Origin: a virus
Virus record (IMG/VR): IMGVR_UViG_3300023478_000001
Location: 1-64,000 of that record
DNA: 64,000 nt
Direction: 5' to 3' (one strand)
Within the stretch, counting starts at the first letter, position 1. Every line of letters starts with the position of its first letter. Positions 1 through 13,957 of the stretch are shown here, one piece after another. A program made the position numbers and the translations under genes. The notes below the pieces were generated by a model. That model was not told the origin of the DNA. It ran no database searches and saw only the letters and a list, made by a program, of their open reading frames with translations.

Positions 1-76
1 GTAGTAATATAGTTTTTCGTTTATCTTTAGGTAATACTGGTGTTCCGTTTCTTAAATCACCTATGTTATATTCCAT
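1..76 (-). CDS. Partial gene cut by the left window edge
   Basis: Only the first 25 codons are visible, starting MEYNIGDLRNGTPVLP and running off the left edge. The visible part contains no diagnostic motif. The end (KRKTILL) looks like the start of a beta strand leading into an alpha/beta domain. Phage glycosyltransferases can begin this way, but that is only a guess. Confidence 0.55.
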   Translation of the reverse strand, partial: MEYNIGDLRNGTPVLPKDKRKTILL

Positions 77-164
77 TCATTTTTTATTTAAGCATCTAGT
101 ATTAGATAATATTTGTAAATTATATTATCATAAAATATATAAGTTTAGATATATCTTTATTTTT

Positions 165-371
165 TTAAAATCCAGAACCGCTTACTTGTAGTTCAGTATA
201 TTCATTTATTTCATTTCTATATGTTTCATCAGTAACATACTTATGTAATGTTCTGTTTGTAATTCGTTGTAGTGTAACGCCAGATGTAAATGATATATAT
301 TTAAATTGTGCATAAATATCTTTAATAATTTTTACAGTCGTAAGTTTTGTTTGAGTTTCGTTTGATTTCAT
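165..371 (-). CDS. Small ribbon-helix-helix-like protein
   Basis: This 68-residue protein begins MKSNETQTKL. A strand (TTVKIIKDIY) is followed by two helices (residues about 20-45, with TLQRITNRTLHKYV), which resembles the Arc/MetJ-type ribbon-helix-helix DNA-binding fold. The frame stays open 22 codons further upstream, but that part is hydrophobic AT-rich leader. The start chosen here is preceded by GGGAG at good spacing. The likely role is phage transcription control. The fold assignment comes from pattern only. Confidence 0.6.
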   Translation of the reverse strand: MKSNETQTKLTTVKIIKDIYAQFKYISFTSGVTLQRITNRTLHKYVTDETYRNEINEYTELQVSGSGF

Positions 372-427
372 TAGATTACTCCCTATTAATATATATATAA
401 ATATATAAAAAAATAAAAAACAATAAT

Positions 428-673
428 TTATTTCCATGAATCACAATGAGTACCTTTAAATACACACCAATCACATAATCGAGATGGCTTTGCAGGATAT
501 CCAGTAAGTCTACGATTTCCGTTTTCATCAAATACTGTATCTACAAATTCCATAAAAAGTTTCCATGCAGCATTTATAGATGGGCTACCATTTGCAGGTG
601 CAAACTTTGATACTCGTGGTATTGGATACTCTAAATCAGTACGAACTTTTCGCTTTAATATGTGATATTCCAC
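428..673 (-). pseudogene. PD-(D/E)XK nuclease, C-terminal fragment
   Basis: The 81 residues include LCDWCVFKGTHC near the end, a cysteine cluster like the C-terminal one in RecB/Cas4-type phage nucleases. The frame is open upstream (YSEKYNIPLNDIRVEYH), so this is the continuation of the 705-1070 fragment in another frame. The first codon in this frame is GTG (position 673) with no convincing ribosome site. Together the two pieces would form one nuclease, but the segment that should hold the D/E-x-K catalytic core is missing between them. Confidence 0.6.
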
Positions 674-704
674 TCTAATATCATTTAAAGGTATGTTGTA
701 CTTT

Positions 705-1070
705 TCAGAATATAATTTTTGTTTTACCTGATATTTTATCTAATAATACAATATCAATCATTCCAATAAAATCTACTCCGTGCTTTATTTCATCAGTTAA
801 TTTTAATTCAATTCCTTTTAATTCATAACCTGATTTTGGATAAAATTTATTTAATTTATTAATAAGATACTGTAATGTTCTTCTACCATCACCATAAAAT
901 TCTTCTAATTCTAATTGTGTACATGGTAATTGGTCATTCATTCGTTTTTGCTCTTTCAAAAAATTACGTTTCATGTTTCCCAATAACTGAACGTCTAAAT
1001 CTATTTCTAACGCTTTCTTTTTGGATTCGCCATACATTATTTCTAAAAAATCTTGTATGGTTTCGTGCAT
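705..1070 (-). pseudogene. PD-(D/E)XK nuclease, N-terminal fragment
   Basis: The 121 residues contain MHETIQDFL and GVDFIGMIDIVLLDK, the helix and first catalytic-strand region (G-x-I-D) of RecB-family PD-(D/E)XK nucleases. The frame is also open upstream to about 1140 (LNYVDRLGKYESNIHLIYG), matching the usual N-terminal part of this family, so the true start has been lost or lies under the promoter. The chain stops at KTKIIF just where the catalytic D-x-K strand should follow. The gene appears to have lost its core by a deletion that also changed frame. Confidence 0.6.
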
Positions 1071-1142
1071 CGAAACTCCGTATATTAAATGGATGTTTGA
1101 TTCATATTTACCAAGTCTATCAACATAATTTAATTTATATTA

Positions 1143-1173
1143 TAAAGATACGAAAAAAAAATGAGATATACAA
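1143..1173 (-). promoter_or_regulatory. Promoter, TTGTAT-N16-GTATCTTTA
   Basis: On the minus strand TTGTAT (1173-1168) lies exactly 16 nt upstream of GTATCTTTA (1151-1143). This fits the Bacteroidetes pattern (-33 TTG, -7 TAnnTTTR) and shares its spacing with eight other sites in the window. It would drive the decayed nuclease and the genes to its left. Confidence 0.65.
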
Positions 1174-1185
1174 GTTTTATCTCAT
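1153..1185 (-). terminator. Intrinsic terminator overlapping a promoter
   Basis: On the minus strand ATGAGATA (1185-1178) pairs with TATCTCAT (1168-1161) around a 9-nt loop, followed by eight T (1160-1153). It ends the transcript from the 1219-2599 genes. Its T-tract is the spacer of the promoter at 1143-1173. Confidence 0.7.
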
Positions 1186-1218
1186 ATTTCTCATATTTTT
1201 AAGAAAGAAAAATATTTA

Positions 1219-1653
1219 TTATAAATTATCTAAATCTTTACTCATGTTAGTAAACTCATTAACAGTATTAATATTTTGTTTAGGTTTTGCAGATTTTGGC
1301 TTTAAACTTTGTATATATTTATATCTTAACTCTGCTAACTGTGTACGTTCTTTTTCTGAATATCTACCTCTATCTAATATTATATCTATAAAGTAAGGGG
1401 GGGTTATATAAAGTTCATTTTTTATTTTAATTAATAAATCACTGGTTTGCGAAGTTAATAAAAATGGATAAGCTATCATGAAACGAGTTTTTGCCGCGTT
1501 TAATATTGGTGGTGGAAATAGGGTACTTTTTTTTATATTTTTACTAAGTTTATTCTTTTTAATTTTTAATTTCGTGGGATGCGTAGTAATAAATTTGTAT
1601 AATACATAGCATAAAACTGAAACTATTAGTACTATAAATAATAATCTAATCAT
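1219..1653 (-). CDS. Small membrane-anchored protein of unknown function
   Basis: The 144-residue protein has an N-terminal hydrophobic segment (residues 2-23, MIRLLFIVLIVSVLCYVLYK) consistent with one membrane anchor, followed by a basic stretch and a soluble C-terminal domain. The start overlaps the stop of the gene to its right by ATGA, indicating translational coupling. The gene is followed by an intrinsic terminator. No family was recognised. Confidence 0.6.
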   Translation of the reverse strand: MIRLLFIVLIVSVLCYVLYKFITTHPTKLKIKKNKLSKNIKKSTLFPPPILNAAKTRFMIAYPFLLTSQTSDLLIKIKNELYITPPYFIDIILDRGRYSEKERTQLAELRYKYIQSLKPKSAKPKQNINTVNEFTNMSKDLDNL

Positions 1654-2015
1654 GCTAATAAATTTATTTGTTTTTTATATTTTTTAAATTGGGTTCGTGC
1701 TTTATCAATTTTTTTCTTTGCTGCTTGTATAGATATTCTATCAGTTGGATATGCATATGAAGCTAGTTCCATAATATCATCGGTTGTATTAAATTCGAAA
1801 TTCTTAATAACTTCTATTTTAATCCAATTATCATCGTCATCCTTTTTTCGTTTACACGTTAAATTAATATTCAAAATTTTACAAAACCCTATATTTTCGT
1901 TAAAAAATATTCCTTTATTTTTGTAGTTATCAATATATTGTCTATTTTTATTAGTTATTTCAATATCAGAATTACTATTAAATATCTTTAATTTTAAAAT
2001 TTCATCTTGTTTCAT
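1650..2015 (-). CDS. Hypothetical protein
   Basis: This 121-residue protein is lysine-rich with an acidic DDDD patch at mid-length (residues 59-62) and a basic, helical C-terminal third. It overlaps its neighbours by a few bases on both sides, so it belongs to a tight operon with 1219-1653 and 2015-2599. No known motif was recognised. Confidence 0.6.
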   Translation of the reverse strand: MKQDEILKLKIFNSNSDIEITNKNRQYIDNYKNKGIFFNENIGFCKILNINLTCKRKKDDDDNWIKIEVIKNFEFNTTDDIMELASYAYPTDRISIQAAKKKIDKARTQFKKYKKQINLLA

Positions 2016-2599
2016 TATGGAATATATAATATGGTTAAACTATTTTTTTTAATTTCAACATCTGGATATTTTTTTTTGAATTGGTCTATTCTAAACGGTT
2101 TAGTAATAAGATGATACCCAGTTTTTGTATGAACTGTTCCTATTGATTTATTAGTAAACCTATTTGGTTCAATTTCATCAATATACCGTATCATATCTAA
2201 GTCAGTTTTAAATGCATCATCAATATCTAGTATCCAATACTGGTCGCCATTATTCACATTACCACCAGAAACCTTTTGATATGTATTTTGAACATTTTTA
2301 AATTCGTTACTACATAATTGATTTGACAATTTTTTTAATGTTCCATACGCAGTTTTCTTAAAACTTTTACGATTTAAGTTAATATAAGTTCTTCCATTAT
2401 ATAATTTACTTAATGTAACAAATTCATCTATTAATGATTTTAAATGGGTTATTGATGTAATTTGATACGAACTAATAATATTCGAATTGCGATTAATACC
2501 AGAATTATCTTTTTTACGTTGCAGTACTGCAACGTAATAAAAATCATCTTCGGTTTCCCATTTCAAGTATGGAATTATATATTTTAAATTGTTTACCAT
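2015..2599 (-). CDS. Hypothetical protein with DxD...GxH pattern
   Basis: The 194-residue protein carries YWILDIDDAF (about residues 121-130) and TKTGYHLITKPF (about 158-169). A strand ending in D-x-D followed by a G-Y-H strand recalls the two catalytic motifs of archaeo-eukaryotic primase/PrimPol folds, with the spacing of a short catalytic core. No helicase or zinc domain is attached. The fold is inferred from motif resemblance only. It overlaps the next gene by one base. Confidence 0.6.
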   Translation of the reverse strand: MVNNLKYIIPYLKWETEDDFYYVAVLQRKKDNSGINRNSNIISSYQITSITHLKSLIDEFVTLSKLYNGRTYINLNRKSFKKTAYGTLKKLSNQLCSNEFKNVQNTYQKVSGGNVNNGDQYWILDIDDAFKTDLDMIRYIDEIEPNRFTNKSIGTVHTKTGYHLITKPFRIDQFKKKYPDVEIKKNSLTILYIP

Positions 2600-2601
2600 T
2601 T

Positions 2602-2787
2602 TTATTTTAAATTTGAAAAAAAGTTTCTCATATAATGATATAAATTGTCAGTCGTATCCTTTGATGCCGTTTGTTGAACTATCGCTGCCTAAAGGAAGTG
2701 GTTTTCTTTTGAAAGCCAGATAAAATTATCTGGAGTAGAATTAATTCGTAATCCATTAATAAATTGTTCTGTTATTTCTGGTTTCAT
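2602..2787 (-). pseudogene. Small ORF interrupted by an in-frame TAG
   Basis: A frame starting MKPEITEQFINGLRIN runs 61 codons to TAA at 2602, with one amber codon at 2691-2689 (codon 33). Both sides read like one protein (FIWLSKENHFL, stop, AAIVQQTASKD). It may be a recently inactivated gene or rely on read-through. No function was recognised. Confidence 0.45.
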
Positions 2788-2794
2788 ACGTTAC

Positions 2795-3328
2795 TTATTT
2801 TTTGATTATTGAAACCCCATTATATTTAGATGCTAATACTGTTGCTTTATATTTTGATAACGTTTTAGCTCTATCAATGTTTGTTGTTCCAAAACAACTA
2901 TGACCATGTGTTGATTTAATATATGAATTATTGTAATTATTAAGTTGAACCACGTACTCTTTTTTTGAAGATAATGATTTTAATCCAGCAACTAAACGTG
3001 TTTTAAACTCTGTATTAAACCATTTATATTTTGTTTGTAGTTCTTTAGAATATGCATTTGGAGCTAAATGTATATGATAATAATCAATAGTTTTATCACA
3101 ACCGCCACCAAATTTCATATCTTTAACAAGGGTATCAACAAAACATAATTTTTCGGTTGAATGATTTAATTGAATCATACCGCCATGTATTTCATTATAT
3201 AGTTCATCAATTGGTATAGGTGGTATCCAATAATTACTACGTGGAACAACATTATTATCACCACCTTTTACTTTAAATGTTTTTAAATCTTTACTAAAAC
3301 TGATTGAATTTGCTATAAAATAACTCAT
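2795..3328 (-). CDS. Hypothetical protein
   Basis: The 177-residue protein has a central region with FGGGCDKTIDYYHIHL and a basic C-terminal half ending GVSIIKK. The His/Tyr-rich centre might be a binding site, but no family is recognisable. It is the first gene after the promoter at 3370-3400. Confidence 0.55.
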   Translation of the reverse strand: MSYFIANSISFSKDLKTFKVKGGDNNVVPRSNYWIPPIPIDELYNEIHGGMIQLNHSTEKLCFVDTLVKDMKFGGGCDKTIDYYHIHLAPNAYSKELQTKYKWFNTEFKTRLVAGLKSLSSKKEYVVQLNNYNNSYIKSTHGHSCFGTTNIDRAKTLSKYKATVLASKYNGVSIIKK

Positions 3329-3369
3329 AATTTATTATATTTAAGGTTTAATTATTTCGTTTTACATAG

Positions 3370-3400
3370 TAAATGTACAAAAAATAATTGATATATACTA
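3370..3400 (-). promoter_or_regulatory. Promoter, TAGTAT-N16-GTACATTTA
   Basis: On the minus strand TAGTAT (3400-3395) is 16 nt upstream of GTACATTTA (3378-3370), about 40 bases before the start at 3328. The -7 element is followed by CTATGT, also found at 4104 and 50837. Confidence 0.6.
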
Positions 3401-3401
3401 A

Positions 3402-4073
3402 TTAAATCTTATTTATTTTAAATGATTTATTTTTTTCATTCAAAGGTAAATAATATGAATATCCATTGTACCACAATTTTTTAATTTTAAAATCAGGTTC
3501 AAGTTCAAAATTTCCAACATTTGTTCTAAATTCTTTATATTCATCATCTAGAATGTTTGATTCTATTACAAGTTCTAATATACCGTTATTAGCAAATTCT
3601 TTTTTAATTTTTTCTAGTTTTTTAATATTTTTCAATGCATCTTTAGACATCAAAGTTCCATCCCAAATACACATATTAGAATCTAATTCGGTTACACGTT
3701 TTTTTGCTATTTCACAATCGGCATCAGATGAATACCAATTTAAATAGTTAATATCGGTAGATTCTGTAATTAATTTACCTTTATACTTACCGTATTTAAA
3801 CTGATTATCATCATAAGTTGGAGTTTCAAACATTTCGGTTGAATTCCAAGAATTATGCTTTCCTTTTAAATCTTCATCCACAGTTAAATCAGTACATCCT
3901 AACTTAGTAGCTTTTTTCTTAGCTTCTAATTCAGTCATAGATAAATTTCTATAATATATAAAATGTGTAGTTGTGTGAGATTTGTAAGTTTTACCGTTAA
4001 AAGAATTATAAAAATCTTCGGTAGTTACATCCCATAAAGTAAAATATTTATTTGTAAATCCAATTTTTAACAT
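3402..4073 (-). CDS. Hypothetical protein with GKYKG motif
   Basis: This 223-residue protein contains FKYGKYKGKLI followed by YLNWY (about residues 91-115). This F-x-(F/Y)-G-K-Y-K-G ... YL-x-W pattern occurs in DUF3820-like modules and at the ends of phage exonucleases. The N-terminal half (ELEAKKKATKLG) looks like a WGR or single-strand-binding-like fold, unproven. Promoters lie on both sides. Confidence 0.55.
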   Translation of the reverse strand: MLKIGFTNKYFTLWDVTTEDFYNSFNGKTYKSHTTTHFIYYRNLSMTELEAKKKATKLGCTDLTVDEDLKGKHNSWNSTEMFETPTYDDNQFKYGKYKGKLITESTDINYLNWYSSDADCEIAKKRVTELDSNMCIWDGTLMSKDALKNIKKLEKIKKEFANNGILELVIESNILDDEYKEFRTNVGNFELEPDFKIKKLWYNGYSYYLPLNEKNKSFKINKI

Positions 4074-4103
4074 AGTATAATTTTAAAATTCATTATTACA
4101 TAG

Positions 4104-4134
4104 TAAATGTACAAAAAAAAAGTGAGAAATCCTA
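4104..4134 (-). promoter_or_regulatory. Promoter, TAGGAT-N16-GTACATTTA
   Basis: TAGGAT (4134-4129) is 16 nt upstream of GTACATTTA (4112-4104) on the minus strand, just before the gene ending at 4073. The TAGGAT box sits inside the loop of the terminator at 4113-4147. Confidence 0.7.
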
Positions 4135-4147
4135 CTGAAATCTCACT
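4113..4147 (-). terminator. Intrinsic terminator fused to a promoter
   Basis: On the minus strand AGTGAGA (4147-4141) pairs with TCTCACT (4127-4121) around a 13-nt loop, then a run of T follows. The T-run is also the promoter spacer, so one 45-base unit ends one transcript and starts the next. Confidence 0.75.
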
Positions 4148-4175
4148 TTTATTTATTTTGGTTTGGTATGATTAG

Positions 4176-4343
4176 CTAAATATCTCTATTATTAACTATC
4201 TGAATATATTTTACATTATGTGCATGCACATCCTGCCAATTAGAATCATTTACATTTGTTTTATAATATACTTTACCTTCACCTATTTTTATTTGTTCAC
4301 ATCTAATTTCAAGTTTGAAATCGGTTTTAATTATTAATTGCAT
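4176..4343 (-). CDS. Small hypothetical protein (55 aa)
   Basis: The reading frame MQLIIKTDFKLEIRCEQIKI ends at TAG in 4176-4178. Alternating hydrophobic and charged residues suggest a small beta-rich protein. It lies between the DUF4326 gene and a terminator and is the last gene of that transcript. No family was recognised. Confidence 0.5.
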   Translation of the reverse strand: MQLIIKTDFKLEIRCEQIKIGEGKVYYKTNVNDSNWQDVHAHNVKYIQIVNNRDI

Positions 4344-4362
4344 ATCGTATTATTTATTATGT

Positions 4363-4704
4363 TTAAAAAAATTTATTTGTTTCTGGATAATATTTATCTA
4401 AAAGTTCAAGTAAAATCTGGCCATGACAATGTAATTTATGTCTATCTTTTAATTCAAAGTGACCACACCAGCAACCGAGTGTTTTACCTTTTAATTCGTG
4501 TAAATCCTTTAAAAGATGCGTTCCGTCACCAAATAAAATATAATCTCTATATTTTTCAATTGCTTCTTTTCTAGTGGGAACAACATATTTTGCCAAAGTA
4601 TCGTTATTTTTAAGATGTGTGTACGGATTTCCCCATTTTGAAGGACGTGCAATATACACATCATAATTTTCTTTATTTATGTGTACTACTTTTGCTTTGG
4701 TCAT
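4363..4704 (-). CDS. DUF4326 domain protein
   Basis: The 113-residue protein shows the full DUF4326 pattern: VYIARPSKWGNPY at the N-terminal end, EAIEKYRDYI in the middle, LKGKTLGCWC and then CHGQILLELL. The family is widespread in phages and small soluble bacterial proteins. The conserved Cys/His residues suggest a metal or nucleotide site, but its biochemical role is not established. It overlaps the upstream gene by 32 bases. Confidence 0.85.
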   Translation of the reverse strand: MTKAKVVHINKENYDVYIARPSKWGNPYTHLKNNDTLAKYVVPTRKEAIEKYRDYILFGDGTHLLKDLHELKGKTLGCWCGHFELKDRHKLHCHGQILLELLDKYYPETNKFF

Positions 4705-4912
4705 TAGCTAATTTTAATATTTCTCTCACAAATATTTCAGCTGATTTAGTCGTATTACCTTCAAAATCCAACTTACCATCTTTTTCAAAAAATTTACCGA
4801 GTATAATACCATTATTTACACTTGCAACTGTGATGAATAATGACTGATTTTTAAACGGTTTCAATGAAAGTATCGAGATACCGTCACCTATTATTTTGTT
4901 ATCTGGTTTCAT
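4673..4912 (-). CDS. Hypothetical protein (79 aa)
   Basis: A small protein starting MKPDNKIIGDGISILSLKPF. It is encoded between the gp62-like clamp-loader gene and the DUF4326 gene and overlaps the latter. No domain was recognised. The alternating strand pattern suggests a compact beta fold. Confidence 0.5.
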   Translation of the reverse strand: MKPDNKIIGDGISILSLKPFKNQSLFITVASVNNGIILGKFFEKDGKLDFEGNTTKSAEIFVREILKLANDQSKSSTHK

Positions 4913-8828: not shown

Positions 8829-9821
8829 TTAAGATTTATGGAACACATAAATTGGTTCATACTTATAGATTTTATTTTTATGTTTTACCGAGTTTTTAAT
8901 TCCTGTTTTAGATGGATCAAGTCCTATCATACGGGTCATTAACATTTTTATTTTTCCTTTGTATTCACATCCTAACTCTTTTAATATTTTTATAGAATCG
9001 CCTTCTAAATCAAAATAAGTATCTTTACCAACTTTAATTGATGCTATATTCCATAAGATATATCTATCATTTTTCAAATATTCATAGATAGTAGTCAAAG
9101 TGGGTTTCAAAAAATTATCCCGCCAATTATCATAATCAGAATATTTATCCCATGATTGTCCAGTTCCAACATCGCCATATCGCTCTCTATTAAAGTATGG
9201 TGGTGATGTAAATGCAATATCTAGTTTACCTTTGTATTTTTTAAATTTTGGATTTTTATATATTAACTCTGAACCATCAGTAAATGTTTCGAATGTATTA
9301 GATTGTGATTTTACTGAAAAGAACTTATTAAATGAATCTGAATGATTATCTATACAATTTTTATTATAAAAATCTGCAACATAATCATATCGTGATTTTT
9401 GAATTTCATCTATATAATTATCCGGATTTGGGTCTGTACCTACATAATGTACTTGTTTACGTGTACTCATCGCTCCAATTATTCTACCACCCCAACCAGC
9501 AGATGAATCATAAATTATTATTGGTTCATCCTGTTTAATATGATTTGTAAAATTTTCATATAAATATTTTGCAGTTAATGCAGGAAAGTTTACAGCAGGT
9601 TGACCACAACTTAATCTAAATACTTGCAAGATTTTTGGAAATATACCAATAGTTTTATCATACCAACGTATTAAATATAAAAATTTAATAATTTTCCCAC
9701 TCTTTAATGTTGTAGAGGGTTCAATCTCTCCCAAATTTGCAATTTGAGTACTATTTAACCATTTATTATCAACACACGTTTGTACTTGTTCTGCAGTTAA
9801 ATATATTTCCATCAAATACAT
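8829..9821 (-). CDS. DNA methyltransferase, C-terminal catalytic piece of a frameshifted gene
   Basis: SAM-dependent DNA methyltransferase with a motif I-like IYDSSAGWGGRIIGA (about residue 103) and catalytic motif IV TSPPYF, placing it among N4-cytosine/N6-adenine amino methylases. The N-terminal residues up to about EIYLTAEQVQTC overlap the previous frame. Restoring two bases (TA) in an AT repeat near 9808 would join this to 9769-10359 as one protein of about 500 residues. It may be inactivated, or expressed by frameshifting. Confidence 0.7.
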   Translation of the reverse strand: MYLMEIYLTAEQVQTCVDNKWLNSTQIANLGEIEPSTTLKSGKIIKFLYLIRWYDKTIGIFPKILQVFRLSCGQPAVNFPALTAKYLYENFTNHIKQDEPIIIYDSSAGWGGRIIGAMSTRKQVHYVGTDPNPDNYIDEIQKSRYDYVADFYNKNCIDNHSDSFNKFFSVKSQSNTFETFTDGSELIYKNPKFKKYKGKLDIAFTSPPYFNRERYGDVGTGQSWDKYSDYDNWRDNFLKPTLTTIYEYLKNDRYILWNIASIKVGKDTYFDLEGDSIKILKELGCEYKGKIKMLMTRMIGLDPSKTGIKNSVKHKNKIYKYEPIYVFHKS

Positions 9822-10359
9822 CTTTTATAAAATCAATACCATTTTGTCCATTCCAAAATTTATTTTCGGTGCGTTTTGTTACGATTGATCTTGACCAAGA
9901 ATACATTGAATCGCGTTTTACAGCTCTTTTCATAATTCTAATAAACCTATCTTCAAGAGTAGGTTCAGCAAAATAATCATAAATTGATAATCCGCCATCA
10001 GATGATTTGCCACTAGATATTTTTGTTTTTAACATAGTTGGAAAAAACTGATTTATCACGGATGCATCTTTATTAAAATTTTGAATTATTCCAAGCGATT
10101 CTGTATCATTAGTTAAATCCTTTTCCAAAAAATTGCAATCATTTCCTTTTAATTTTCTAAATGATTTTATTATACCATCTTTGTTCCTTCCAATTACAGG
10201 TGGTGTACCATACACATCCCATTGGTGAGTAACTTCATTACGTAATAGTTTGGCCCAATTCACAAATTCTGTATCAGTCATTTGTAATAATTGATGATAC
10301 GTTGTATTCGATTTAAATTCAGAAAATCTGGAACGTTCATAAAAATAGTTTTTACTCAT
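9769..10359 (-). CDS. DNA methyltransferase-associated N-terminal piece
   Basis: The 196 residues, starting MSKNYFYERSRFSEF, form the N-terminal half of the methyltransferase at 8829-9821. The natural continuation would read DVFDGNIYLTAEQV across the junction, but the frame instead ends NCRTSTNVC. The half contains no recognised catalytic motif and is probably a target-recognition or substrate-binding part. A paralogue-like, intact arrangement exists at 14441-15685. Confidence 0.6.
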   Translation of the reverse strand: MSKNYFYERSRFSEFKSNTTYHQLLQMTDTEFVNWAKLLRNEVTHQWDVYGTPPVIGRNKDGIIKSFRKLKGNDCNFLEKDLTNDTESLGIIQNFNKDASVINQFFPTMLKTKISSGKSSDGGLSIYDYFAEPTLEDRFIRIMKRAVKRDSMYSWSRSIVTKRTENKFWNGQNGIDFIKDVFDGNIFNCRTSTNVC

Positions 10360-11253: not shown

Positions 11254-12123
11254 TTAAAAATTAAAAAATTTACTGGCAGTTTTTTGTTCATTAAGTACTA
11301 ATCCCCATTTTAATACATCATAAAAATCTTGAAGTTTTCCTAATAATTCTCTTTCAAATATTTTTTCATGATTAATATAAGTATCTATAAATTTTGTTAT
11401 TTCTGGTGGGTCTTTATATCCAGTAAATCCTACTGCATCTAATCCAAACGGATTACGTTTTAAATACACCCATTTTATTTTATCGCCGTTTTTCATTGGT
11501 GCGTATTTATATGGAGTTTTGTAATATTTTAATAAATCATTATACGCAATACCAGCTTTAACATGAGCAGGTGCACCCTTTTTAAAATCGAATAATTTTG
11601 TGCTCCCAACATTCATATATTTACTTAGTTCCTTTACTGCAGAATTTTTAGCTATATCTGTGTTTGATAACTGTATCATCGAACTTTTGAATCCTAATAT
11701 TATATCTGATATTGTACTTTGCGGTGTATCTTTTAATATTTCTATAAGTACTTTTGACATTAAATCTTGAAATGCTTTTGGAAATGATGAACGTATTACA
11801 TCTAACCCTTTAACATCAAGTTTATCAACAGGTACACCATTATTAGAAATAATCCATTGAGCATATCTTTTTTTGGCTACCCAAAATCCTGCGCGTGCAA
11901 CATATTCCTTTTTTATTTGTAATCTGTGTTGTTGTACATTTAATATTTTATCTGCAAATATATCATAAAATTTATTTAAATAATTTTGCATTTCTCCTGC
12001 AATATTATCCACTTTTTTAGCTATATTTGCAGGTGTGTCTTGTTCCCATTTAGGGTTTCGGTAGTCTAATAACGGTACTGCCGAAAAAAATACTGAATCT
12101 GTATCAATTTTCTCCCCGAAAGA
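11254..12123 (-). CDS. Family B DNA polymerase, C-terminal part (palm motif C and thumb)
   Basis: The open frame from 12123 holds polymerase motif C (IDTDSVFF, near 12105-12085), KKRYAQW (about 11877), GVPVDKLDVKGLDVIRSS and the thumb. It ends with KTASKFFNF, which resembles the C-terminal clamp-binding peptide of RB69/T4 polymerase. Just upstream is the in-frame TAA of the 42-nt insertion. The first usual start codon, GTG at 12012, would drop motif C. The fragment is expected to be joined to the upstream part by bypass, or to act as a separate subunit. Confidence 0.85.
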   Translation of the reverse strand, partial: SFGEKIDTDSVFFSAVPLLDYRNPKWEQDTPANIAKKVDNIAGEMQNYLNKFYDIFADKILNVQQHRLQIKKEYVARAGFWVAKKRYAQWIISNNGVPVDKLDVKGLDVIRSSFPKAFQDLMSKVLIEILKDTPQSTISDIILGFKSSMIQLSNTDIAKNSAVKELSKYMNVGSTKLFDFKKGAPAHVKAGIAYNDLLKYYKTPYKYAPMKNGDKIKWVYLKRNPFGLDAVGFTGYKDPPEITKFIDTYINHEKIFERELLGKLQDFYDVLKWGLVLNEQKTASKFFNF

Positions 12124-12144
12124 TTAAACTAACGGGGAGAACGC
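12103..12144 (-). other. 42-nt hairpin insertion in polymerase motif C with in-frame stop
   Basis: Between codons for YID and TDSV lie 14 extra codons that include TAA (12126-12124). The insert contains a perfect 9-bp inverted repeat, TTCTCCCCG/CGGGGAGAA (12110-12118 and 12133-12141), around a 14-nt loop. It is flanked by ATCGAT and ATTGAT. GGGGAG precedes the downstream GAT by six bases. Removing the 42 nt restores an uninterrupted catalytic motif. The geometry resembles T4 gene 60 bypass: matching take-off and landing codons, a hairpin, and an SD-like element before landing. Confidence 0.7.
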
Positions 12145-12207
12145 ATCGATATAGATATTGCTATCTACTGTAGCACCACCTATATCGAGTATTTTTTTTA
12201 TTTTCAT
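12124..12207 (-). CDS. Short ORF: split-intein C-start remnant plus polymerase residues up to YID
   Basis: The 27-codon frame begins MKIKKILDIGGATVDSN, then IYID and AFSPLV-stop. The MKIKKI opening is the usual start of a C-intein fragment in this genome, but the block F/G region ending in HN is absent, so the splice junction appears deleted. DSNIYID followed by TDSV is polymerase sequence. The ORF joins the frame of the downstream polymerase part except for the TAA. Confidence 0.5.
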   Translation of the reverse strand: MKIKKILDIGGATVDSNIYIDAFSPLV

Positions 12208-12223
12208 TTATTATATATTTTTA

Positions 12224-13957
12224 TTAATTTAAAACTAAATCATCATTTGGTTGCAATTCTTTAGCCGGTATTGTTGTTATAATTCCATTACGAGTTATAG
12301 TCATTTTAGTATTTGGACTAATTTTAATAATTTTATTATTTTCTAACTCAATCTTCATCGGAGTTCCGCCAATTTCTTCATTATATTTAAGATTACACAT
12401 ATTCGCCGTTGACTTAATAATTAGCTGTCCTGTCGTTGTAACTGCTTCAGCATTTTCTCTATCATAAAAACGAAATGCGGGGAGACCCATTGTGCCATAT
12501 AAACTATTAAGTAAAATTTTCTGTACAAGCTGTCGTTTTCCATAAAAATTATATTGTTCACTATCGCCAGATTTACCATATTTTTTCATTAAATTTTTAT
12601 ATTTTACTCGTTGATCAAACCATAATGAAAGTATACCTGGAATACAACCTACTATATCTTTTCTGTACAAAACTCCATTAGTTGATACACTATAATCTTG
12701 CTCTTTTATAAGTTTAGCTAAGTTTTCCGAAGTTATAGTATTATTATCAATAGAATATGTTTTATTAGTATTATTTAAAAATTGTTGTGAATCCCAGTTA
12801 ATAATTTTAGCAATTTTAGTTTCTGGCGAAATATTTAATGTCATAATAATAGATGGATACAATGATGTTAAATCTAAATCATATATCCAATCATGTTTAC
12901 CAACTATTGGTTCTTTTACATATGCACCAATAAATTTTCCCTTTCCCGCTTCTTTTAATGCTTTCATTTTTTCTCTTCTATCTGCAGGTTTATTAGGAGC
13001 AACTAAATTTTTACGTTTTAAATAAGTTAATAATGCACCTTCTAAATATTTAGAAGAATATACAAAATCTTCATATGGTACATGACCTGAATGACAAATT
13101 CCTCTACATAAATCAATAAATTGTAGTTTCTTTTCTAATTTTACTACAATTTCAACATCTACTGTATTATATTCGACAAATTTATTAATATCTGTTTGAA
13201 ATAAATCATCAAGGTTTCCTTCATATTCAATTTTACCTTGATTTAGTTCAAGTTTACCAACGGTATCTAATCTATAATTAGGCAATTCATTATAATTGAA
13301 TTTCTTATATAATGATAAATAATCTAAGCAACTTACCCCCGCTAAAAAGAATCTTTGGCGATACGGTGAATAAAATGATTTTCCAATCGGTGATAATCTA
13401 TTTGCGTAGTCTATTCCTAATATTCGTTTTATACGATTAAATAAGTATGGAATATCAAAATAGTCAATATTCCAACCTGTTATAATATCTGGTGCTATAT
13501 CTTCATATATTTCTAAAAATTTCAAACACATAGCTATTTCAGTTTTAAACGGTAACACTAATGCCTTTGATGTTTGTTTTGCTTGCATTTTACCGGTTTT
13601 ATCCATTACAAGTACAACATATTTATTACTAATATTATCGTGCAACCCAATAGCAGTCAGCTCGTTAGTTGATTCATTAACATTAGGTAATCCACTTTCC
13701 ATTTCTACCTCAATATCAAATGTAAATACTTTAATACCAGTTGAAATTTCATCTGAATCTGTGTAAGTATCTACGAGTACTCTTGTAGTTTCAGGTACAT
13801 CAGATTCAAAAAGATTAATGTCATCCTTTGAAAACTTATATATCTTAGTTAGTTTATCACCATAAATTGATGTGTAACTACCATTAATATTTTTTTCATA
13901 TGCGTATCGAGAGTATGGAAACGAAATATATCCGTTAGTGTCATCCCAGATATGCAT
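12224..13957 (-). CDS. Family B DNA polymerase, N-terminal part with intein-like tail
   Basis: The 577 residues cover the 3'-5' exonuclease (FTFDIEVEM, exo I; GWNIDYFDIPYL, exo II; YNTVDVEIV, exo III) and the polymerase palm motif A (DLDLTSLYPSIIM) and motif B (KILLNSLYGTMG). After GQLIIKSTANMC the sequence changes to a Hint-like block B (IKISPNTKMTITRNG), ending NDDLVLN. No block A cysteine is present, so this N-intein is defective or deleted. The frame is open about 18 codons upstream (IYKNIYYQREKNL) with no ATG, so the true N-terminus may lie there. Confidence 0.88.
   Translation of the reverse strand: MHIWDDTNGYISFPYSRYAYEKNINGSYTSIYGDKLTKIYKFSKDDINLFESDVPETTRVLVDTYTDSDEISTGIKVFTFDIEVEMESGLPNVNESTNELTAIGLHDNISNKYVVLVMDKTGKMQAKQTSKALVLPFKTEIAMCLKFLEIYEDIAPDIITGWNIDYFDIPYLFNRIKRILGIDYANRLSPIGKSFYSPYRQRFFLAGVSCLDYLSLYKKFNYNELPNYRLDTVGKLELNQGKIEYEGNLDDLFQTDINKFVEYNTVDVEIVVKLEKKLQFIDLCRGICHSGHVPYEDFVYSSKYLEGALLTYLKRKNLVAPNKPADRREKMKALKEAGKGKFIGAYVKEPIVGKHDWIYDLDLTSLYPSIIMTLNISPETKIAKIINWDSQQFLNNTNKTYSIDNNTITSENLAKLIKEQDYSVSTNGVLYRKDIVGCIPGILSLWFDQRVKYKNLMKKYGKSGDSEQYNFYGKRQLVQKILLNSLYGTMGLPAFRFYDRENAEAVTTTGQLIIKSTANMCNLKYNEEIGGTPMKIELENNKIIKISPNTKMTITRNGIITTIPAKELQPNDDLVLN

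Follow-up and report, generated by a model that had tools for sequence, protein, structure and literature searches.

The family B DNA polymerase (PolB) gene in the 64,000-nt stretch of viral DNA analyzed here (the window) is broken twice, first into two ORFs that carry the remnants of a split intein and again, 21 codons into the second ORF, by a 42-nt gap inside the catalytic motif YIDTDS. The reading that best accounts for this arrangement, to which we assign a probability of roughly 0.6, is programmed ribosome hopping similar to that of T4 gene 60, operating in an intein-derived cassette that was fractured by a homing endonuclease. Related viruses harbor the same layout, even in an unrelated enzyme, and comparison of their sequences suggests that a routine ribosome jump over the gap may occur in each. 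The initial annotation of this DNA had already proposed a bypass, as a single insert in one continuous gp43. The bypass stands as the best explanation, with recurrent gaps in catalytic motifs, 5′ hairpins and, in several cases, matched codons in its favor, but the continuous gene does not: it is fractured, and both fragments carry split-intein remnants.

The anatomy of the gap can be read directly (Table 1). On the minus strand (12144-12103) it comprises GCG TTC TCC CCG TTA GTT TAA TCT TTC GGG GAG AAA ATT GAT, preceded on the 5′ side by AAT ATC TAT ATC GAT (ATC GAT at 12150-12145) and followed by ACA GAT TCA from 12102. The 42-nt insert with its in-frame TAA held up letter by letter, as did the perfect 9-bp hairpin, in which TTCTCCCCG (12141-12133) pairs with CGGGGAGAA (12118-12110), and the GGGGAG six bases before the landing GAT. 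The stem starts 3 nt past the take-off GAT, and the UAA is the seventh codon past take-off rather than directly 3′ of the take-off codon. The 151 nt around the gap fold with a predicted energy of −42.4 kcal/mol, compared with −20.8 for shuffled sequences (z = −6.6; none of 200 shuffles was as good). Because 105 distinct uninterrupted relatives read continuously through YIDTDS, the gap is an insertion, and its excision restores the motif, as had been claimed. The insert occurs once in the 71,322-nt virus record. A random 42-nt insert would be expected to have GAT at its end in ~1.9% of cases, and a random 5-nt insert to provide an early stop and a matched hop restoring DTDS in ~1.6%. The role of the GGGGAG is doubtful because SD use is rare in the window genome, where SD-like motifs precede 5 of the 52 start codons; it is perhaps just part of the gap stem. 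The same scarcity of SD motifs (5 of 52 starts) points to a host with SD-poor initiation. No tRNA genes were found in the window.

Table 1. Positions of features in and around the interrupted polymerase gene of the window
Feature	Positions	Strand	Remarks
N-terminal fragment, family B DNA polymerase, 577 aa	12224-13957	−	PF03104 and PF00136 matches
C-terminal tail of the N-terminal fragment (N-pol), decayed half of a split-intein N fragment	12227-12367	−	Block B region, no block A
"C-head" MKIKKILDIGGATVDSNIYID, 21 codons, start of the C fragment	12145-12207	−	Intein-C-like first strand and extein strand NIYID
5′ hairpin	12146-12188	−	NIYID codons form the 3′ arm, up to the take-off GAT; head z = −6.1, 0/1000 shuffles; covariation
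Putative take-off codon GAT (D of YID)	12145-12147	−	
Untranslated gap, 42 nt	12103-12144	−	Between ATC GAT and ACA GAT TCA
Gap hairpin TTCTCCCCG-N14-CGGGGAGAA	12110-12141	−	Loop conserved in L087
In-frame TAA stop of the gap	12124-12126	−	The sole one
GGGGAG, SD-like, 6 nt before landing codon	12112-12117	−	Putative role
Putative landing codon GAT	12103-12105	−	
C-terminal polymerase fragment, coding again from TDSVFF	11254-12102	−	PF00136 at 1e-8; pairwise dN/dS indicates purifying selection

The gene thus contains two nearby insertions: KYNEEIG and DSNIYID are parted by the fracture, YID and TDS by the gap. The fracture lies some 60-80 nt upstream of the insert: the N-terminal fragment, whose nearest relatives are ~73% identical and uninterrupted, reaches KYNEEIGG, continues into a tail of ~45 aa and stops at 12224, and a new ATG follows at 12207, 16 nt on. 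In relatives the same region is KYNKELGTKDVDSNIYIDTDSVFF, unbroken. Past the gap the C fragment runs for ~283 codons. The other split polymerase genes, both PolB and DnaE, have heads of the same kind as the window C-head. The initial annotation had missed both the gene split, which places the insert 21 codons into the C fragment, and the upstream hairpin at 12146-12188. It had named separately initiated polypeptides as an observation that would count against bypass; the N stop and the ATG at 12207 agree with two such chains, but the insert is still present within the C fragment.

Several comparisons identify the origin of the tail. It matches the Pfam model Intein_splicing (PF14890) at 19.8 bits. 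In an AF2 model of the N-pol C terminus the tail has a pLDDT of about 70-85, and its first 19 PDB matches are all inteins, with 33-48 columns aligned and most within 2 Å rmsd, none having an E-value under 0.2. An HMM built from seven polymerase tails gives the canonical split TerL intein of Streptococcus phage GXN1 a score of 33 bits, which 0/2000 shuffles reach, the highest of them having 12.7 bits; the split DnaE tails of Cellulophaga phi13:1 and MT835494 obtain 22 and 28 bits, compared with 19.5 for the highest-scoring shuffle. The window tail has, in a model of moderate confidence, an intein (Hint) fold. However, unlike in split inteins, the block A nucleophile, the catalytic TxxH and the C-terminal HN are absent from the tail IGGTPMKIELENNKIIKISPNTK and the head MKIKKILDIGG, and protein splicing is not expected because all three are missing. 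Instead, the intein remnant probably serves to bring the N and C halves back together, unspliced. The gap also sits at a known intein site, as the initial annotation had stated. The pol-c intein of LR756508.1 occupies the corresponding position, YxD/TDS, being a full intein at YTD/TDS. In this 484-kb phage (L014/L015) the PolB gene contains an intein between LLIN and SVYG as well as a split with a half-intein tail; the full pol-c intein is in the C fragment, and ~3 kb of other genes lie between the fragments.

Interruptions of this type recur in other viral PolB genes. Viral collections were scanned, and the counts of interrupted loci are lower bounds. Among the viral loci compared, split polymerases of the window type are present at eight (the window, L087, L057, L069, L095, L004, L135, and LR756508.1); in a ninth, L134, a homing-type ORF comes after the tail and the contig ends. 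Five of the PolB loci are interrupted between YID and TDS, the window and L087 by 42 nt, L057 by 6 nt, and L004 and L135 by 5 nt each; L069 and L095 are split but uninterrupted. With the two DnaE cases described below, there are seven interrupted lineages (the window, four further PolB and two DnaE), with gaps of 5, 5, 6, 7, 40, 42, and 42 nt. Excision restores the catalytic motif in all seven. Two lineages have the same codon at take-off and landing and two more have synonymous ones, and a restart AUG is absent from five of the seven. The PolB codon pairs are GAT/GAT in the window, ACG/ACC in L004, ACC/ACA in L135, and ACG/ATG in L057. A stop lies directly 3′ of take-off in L004, L135, L057, and the DnaE case MT835494, all with tiny gaps.

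The L087 insert is homologous to that of the window, with a common stem and loop and the TAA at a different codon, and a copy of it is carried by L125. The 58.8-kb L125 contig starts (position 1) within the NIYID hairpin, as though differing alleles had broken the assembly there. L087 fits bypass poorly, because ACA is preceded by TAC in place of GAT, and ATG TAC ACA GAT, with its ATG two codons ahead of TDS, offers re-initiation. The L057 gap, of which L131 has a copy, is TAAATG and directly precedes DS. The L004 and L135 junctions read ATC GAT ACG TAA CC GAT TCA and ATC GAC ACC TGA CA GAC TCA, respectively; their take-off, stop, and landing codon differences are all synonymous, and the two may share descent. 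Thus, the matched GAT codons and GGGGAG listed in the initial annotation as bypass features hold for the window but are not universal, L087 having TAC before TDS and the short-gap cases lacking GGGGAG. Pattern scans gave no match for the exact window-junction DNA, only L125 and L087 for the stem, and, for NIYIDT followed by a stop, L135, L057, L004, and their copies as the only interrupted polymerases; a pattern scan of genome contigs gave one match, which was unrelated.

The interrupted loci do not form one clade in a tree of the C fragment (C-pol). The window and L087 share an insert yet are not sisters, and L057 adjoins the uninterrupted L069, to which it is 94% identical. Because the interrupted loci are scattered in this way, with L057 beside L069, a moving cassette fits. 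ORFs resembling homing endonucleases lie between the fragments in L004, L069, and L095, an assignment that is a reading of their sequences and placement; they have no Pfam or NCBIfam match. The fragments are only 13-18 nt apart in the window, L087, and L135. The L069 polymerase (1-4864) is encoded in three or more pieces: N1, which runs up to 1035, is followed by an HNH-like ORF (1072-1767) and by N2 (1742-2293), which has its own new head and precedes another homing-type ORF and the C fragment. The C-fragment ORFs are under purifying selection: between L057 and L069, dN/dS is 0.076 for C-pol and 0.067 for N-pol, and other pairs, for which dS is near saturation, point in the same direction.

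Searching with the half-intein tail also revealed fractured genes for DNA polymerase III alpha (DnaE). In Cellulophaga phi13:1, Tenacibaculum phage Larrie, and Bacteroides phage BS-TP1 these have the tail and head with the PDIDTDF-type motif intact, and in two human-faecal phage contigs, MT835494 and MT835601, which are unverified metagenomic records, the motif is interrupted. MT835494 has a 7-nt gap between LP and DIDVD, reading GHSALP(CCG) TAAGGCG and then DIDVDY, with the codon pair CCG/GCG and HNH-like ORFs between the fragments. In MT835601, GSLPD(GAT) is followed by the 40-nt gap CAATTTCCCCCTTGTTTTCGAACAAGGGGGAGCGTTAGAT and then IDTDV (LPD/IDTD). This gap shifts the frame, an 811-codon ORF follows it, and no in-frame ATG, GTG, or TTG is present near the junction. 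Its plan resembles that of the window gap, though in an unrelated enzyme: the flanking codons are GAT/GAT, a perfect 10-bp hairpin has a UUCG loop, and GGGGGAG lies 5 nt ahead of the landing GAT. This independent case strengthens the bypass proposal. The further DnaE matches, L247-L251, are uninterrupted or broken differently. In phage BS-TP1 (L243; PQ571274.1, positions 583-1524) the DnaE C fragment is unannotated, and the halves flank a Dda-like helicase gene. The DnaE gene of Bacillus phage Jayan (L252 1754-2030; PQ299153.1) contains ~270 nt with a short ORF between MP and DIDTD, perhaps an intron at the same hot spot.

Directly upstream of the window gap is a second hairpin, stronger than that of the gap itself, and its presence tracks interruption. 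When whole heads were compared, 10-13 of the last 15 nt were paired as a hairpin 3′ arm in each of the seven interrupted cases (z = −2.7 to −6.1), whereas all six uninterrupted split heads lacked the hairpin, with 1-5 nt paired. The arm duplex in the PolB cases has energies of −14.8 to −21.4 kcal/mol; the best among 105 unsplit genes is −11.3. The weakest excess over shuffles, a moderate one (z = −2.7), is that of MT835494, whose hairpin loop is 3 nt. In PolB (five cases) the 5′ arm tracks synonymous third-position changes at the GAY, ATH, TAY, ATH, and AAY codons, giving compensatory pairs at four positions, all third codon positions; this fit, made on five ungapped sequences with pairs maximized, is biased toward pairing, and the uninterrupted controls fail the hairpin test.

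These features would fit the following mechanism. An element of the homing-endonuclease/split-intein type would have fractured the polymerase gene, leaving a half-intein tail on the N fragment and a short head on the C fragment. The ribosome would translate the 21-codon head to the GAT of YID, let go of the mRNA and slide across the 42-nt gap, which its own hairpin would compact. Asp-tRNA would then re-pair with the landing GAT and translation would resume, restoring YIDTDS. On emerging from the ribosome the 5′ hairpin would refold and tug the mRNA backwards, thereby powering the forward slide, a role already suggested for the 5′ stem-loop of T4 gene 60. The window has a 5′ stem-loop, a gap hairpin, matched GAT codons, and an SD-like site, each of which could contribute. 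Counting against bypass, no stop adjoins the take-off codon in the window, and re-initiation is possible in L087 and L057.

Indeed, the main rival to hopping is termination followed by re-initiation, which would yield a separate head peptide of 21-28 aa containing NIYID and a C fragment that starts anew just before TDS, making a three-chain polymerase split in its catalytic turn. Candidate starts are present in L087 (AUG UAC ACA GAU after GGGGAUAAA), in L057 (UAA AUG GAU), and in the window (AUU after GGGGAGAAA), and split T4-type polymerases do work as two chains (PMC2988022). However, L004 and MT835601 have no plausible start, L135 has only a CTG, and MT835494 only a distant TTG or ATT. Such a break would also cut the head and NIYID strand off from the C fragment they should tether and separate the two catalytic Asp residues, and chance would have to explain why the motif is restored exactly. 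We regard re-initiation as unlikely.

It is quite improbable that the gap is instead a scar left behind by a lost intein or by homing repair, the allele being dead or misassembled and the genome being replicated by another polymerase. As the 71-kb record is a fragment, a further polymerase is possible, and the neighboring methylase gene is frameshifted. This methylase (8829-10359, minus strand) is in two frames here compared with one ~545-aa ORF in relatives; ~110 nt are missing around 9769-9821, which may reflect a deletion, recoding, or an assembly error. Yet the same insert occurs in independent contigs, interruptions recur in five PolB lineages and in DnaE, C-pol is under purifying selection, and a scar would not be expected to show hairpin covariation. 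An assembly artefact, which the initial annotation had allowed for, is disfavored because L087, an independent contig, and again L125 carry a homologous insert at the same site. The initial annotation had also considered replacement of gp43 by a family A polymerase; this is unlikely because the match of the PolA-like ORF is weak and partial, confined to a short part of the C terminus, and the window genome contains T4-type clamp, clamp-loader, and SSB genes. The record holds a single PolB. Least probable of all is excision of the gap at the RNA level, either as a minimal intron or through cleavage and ligation of the transcript. In its favor, excision restores the motif precisely, the RNA around the gap is structured, and a group I intron is known in the 43B gene of phage 25. 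However, introns of 5-7 nt, the size of the gaps in relatives, are implausible, and the window region and four related loci have no Rfam intron or ribozyme match; a group I or group II intron was rejected on the latter ground.

The hopping model is best compared with T4 gene 60, on which efficient ribosome bypass in phages rests and which a review calls apparently unique (PMC3014915). There, take-off is from a GGA codon with a stop and a hairpin beside it, landing is on a matching GGA with an SD-like site, and a 5′ stem-loop zips on leaving the ribosome and pulls the mRNA; synthetic stop-hops work over few nucleotides (PMC5009743, PMC3014915, PMC11194080). Like the window, T4 gene 60 (gp39/gp60 topoisomerase, mobA) combines a homing-endonuclease fracture with a gap near the 5′ end of the C fragment, and its gap also falls in a catalytic DxD-type motif (DADHDG). 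The two have in common matched codons, a GC-rich hairpin, an SD-like pre-landing site, and a 5′ stem-loop, and both C-fragment heads are lysine rich (MKFVKI in T4, MKIKKI in the window), that of the window lying nearer the P site than the KKYK-type signal of gene 60. In contrast, the host genes differ, the gaps have no detectable sequence homology, the stop adjoins take-off in T4 but not in the window, and the gaps of window relatives can be just 5-7 nt. The T4 gp39 tail (L236 3781-3909) is a 43-aa extension, absent from RB69, that by eye resembles the half-intein tails; its homology to the polymerase tails was rejected (HMMER 3.6 bits, p about 0.04; hhalign within the shuffled range).

Other systems share parts of this organization. 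In Aeromonas phages 25 and 44RR a T4-type PolB is likewise made as two chains, gp43A and gp43B, and in phage 25 a homing endonuclease lies between 43A and 43B, with a second insertion in 43B. However, the gp43A/43B split is elsewhere, before SLYG, and the phage 25 intron is not at the window site, being a group I intron between SLYGAL and N rather than a short gap at DTD. The byp elements of Magnusiomyces mitochondria are, like the window gap, short untranslated inserts in coding sequence, which ribosomes skip (PMC5009743), but they number 81 in one mitochondrial genome compared with one copy in this phage record.

We consider it an even bet that T4 gene 60 is one of a class of widespread phage mobile cassettes, its membership resting on layout, not sequence. 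Each would consist of a homing-endonuclease-fractured replication gene, decayed split-intein halves that tie its pieces together, and, in the C fragment, a hairpin-driven hop of 5 to ~50 nt exactly in the endonuclease-targeted catalytic motif, shielding the conserved sequence from cleavage while the protein stays intact. An earlier description of this class was not found in the open-licence papers searched. If the proposal is correct, such genes are at risk of being misannotated as broken or left unannotated. Moreover, seven candidates in two unrelated polymerases, with gaps of 5-42 nt and a common 5′ hairpin, would provide a comparative system in which one could separate what the hairpin, the codon match, the stop, and the nascent peptide each contribute, and bypass, split inteins, and homing endonucleases would be steps in one invasion of catalytic motifs.
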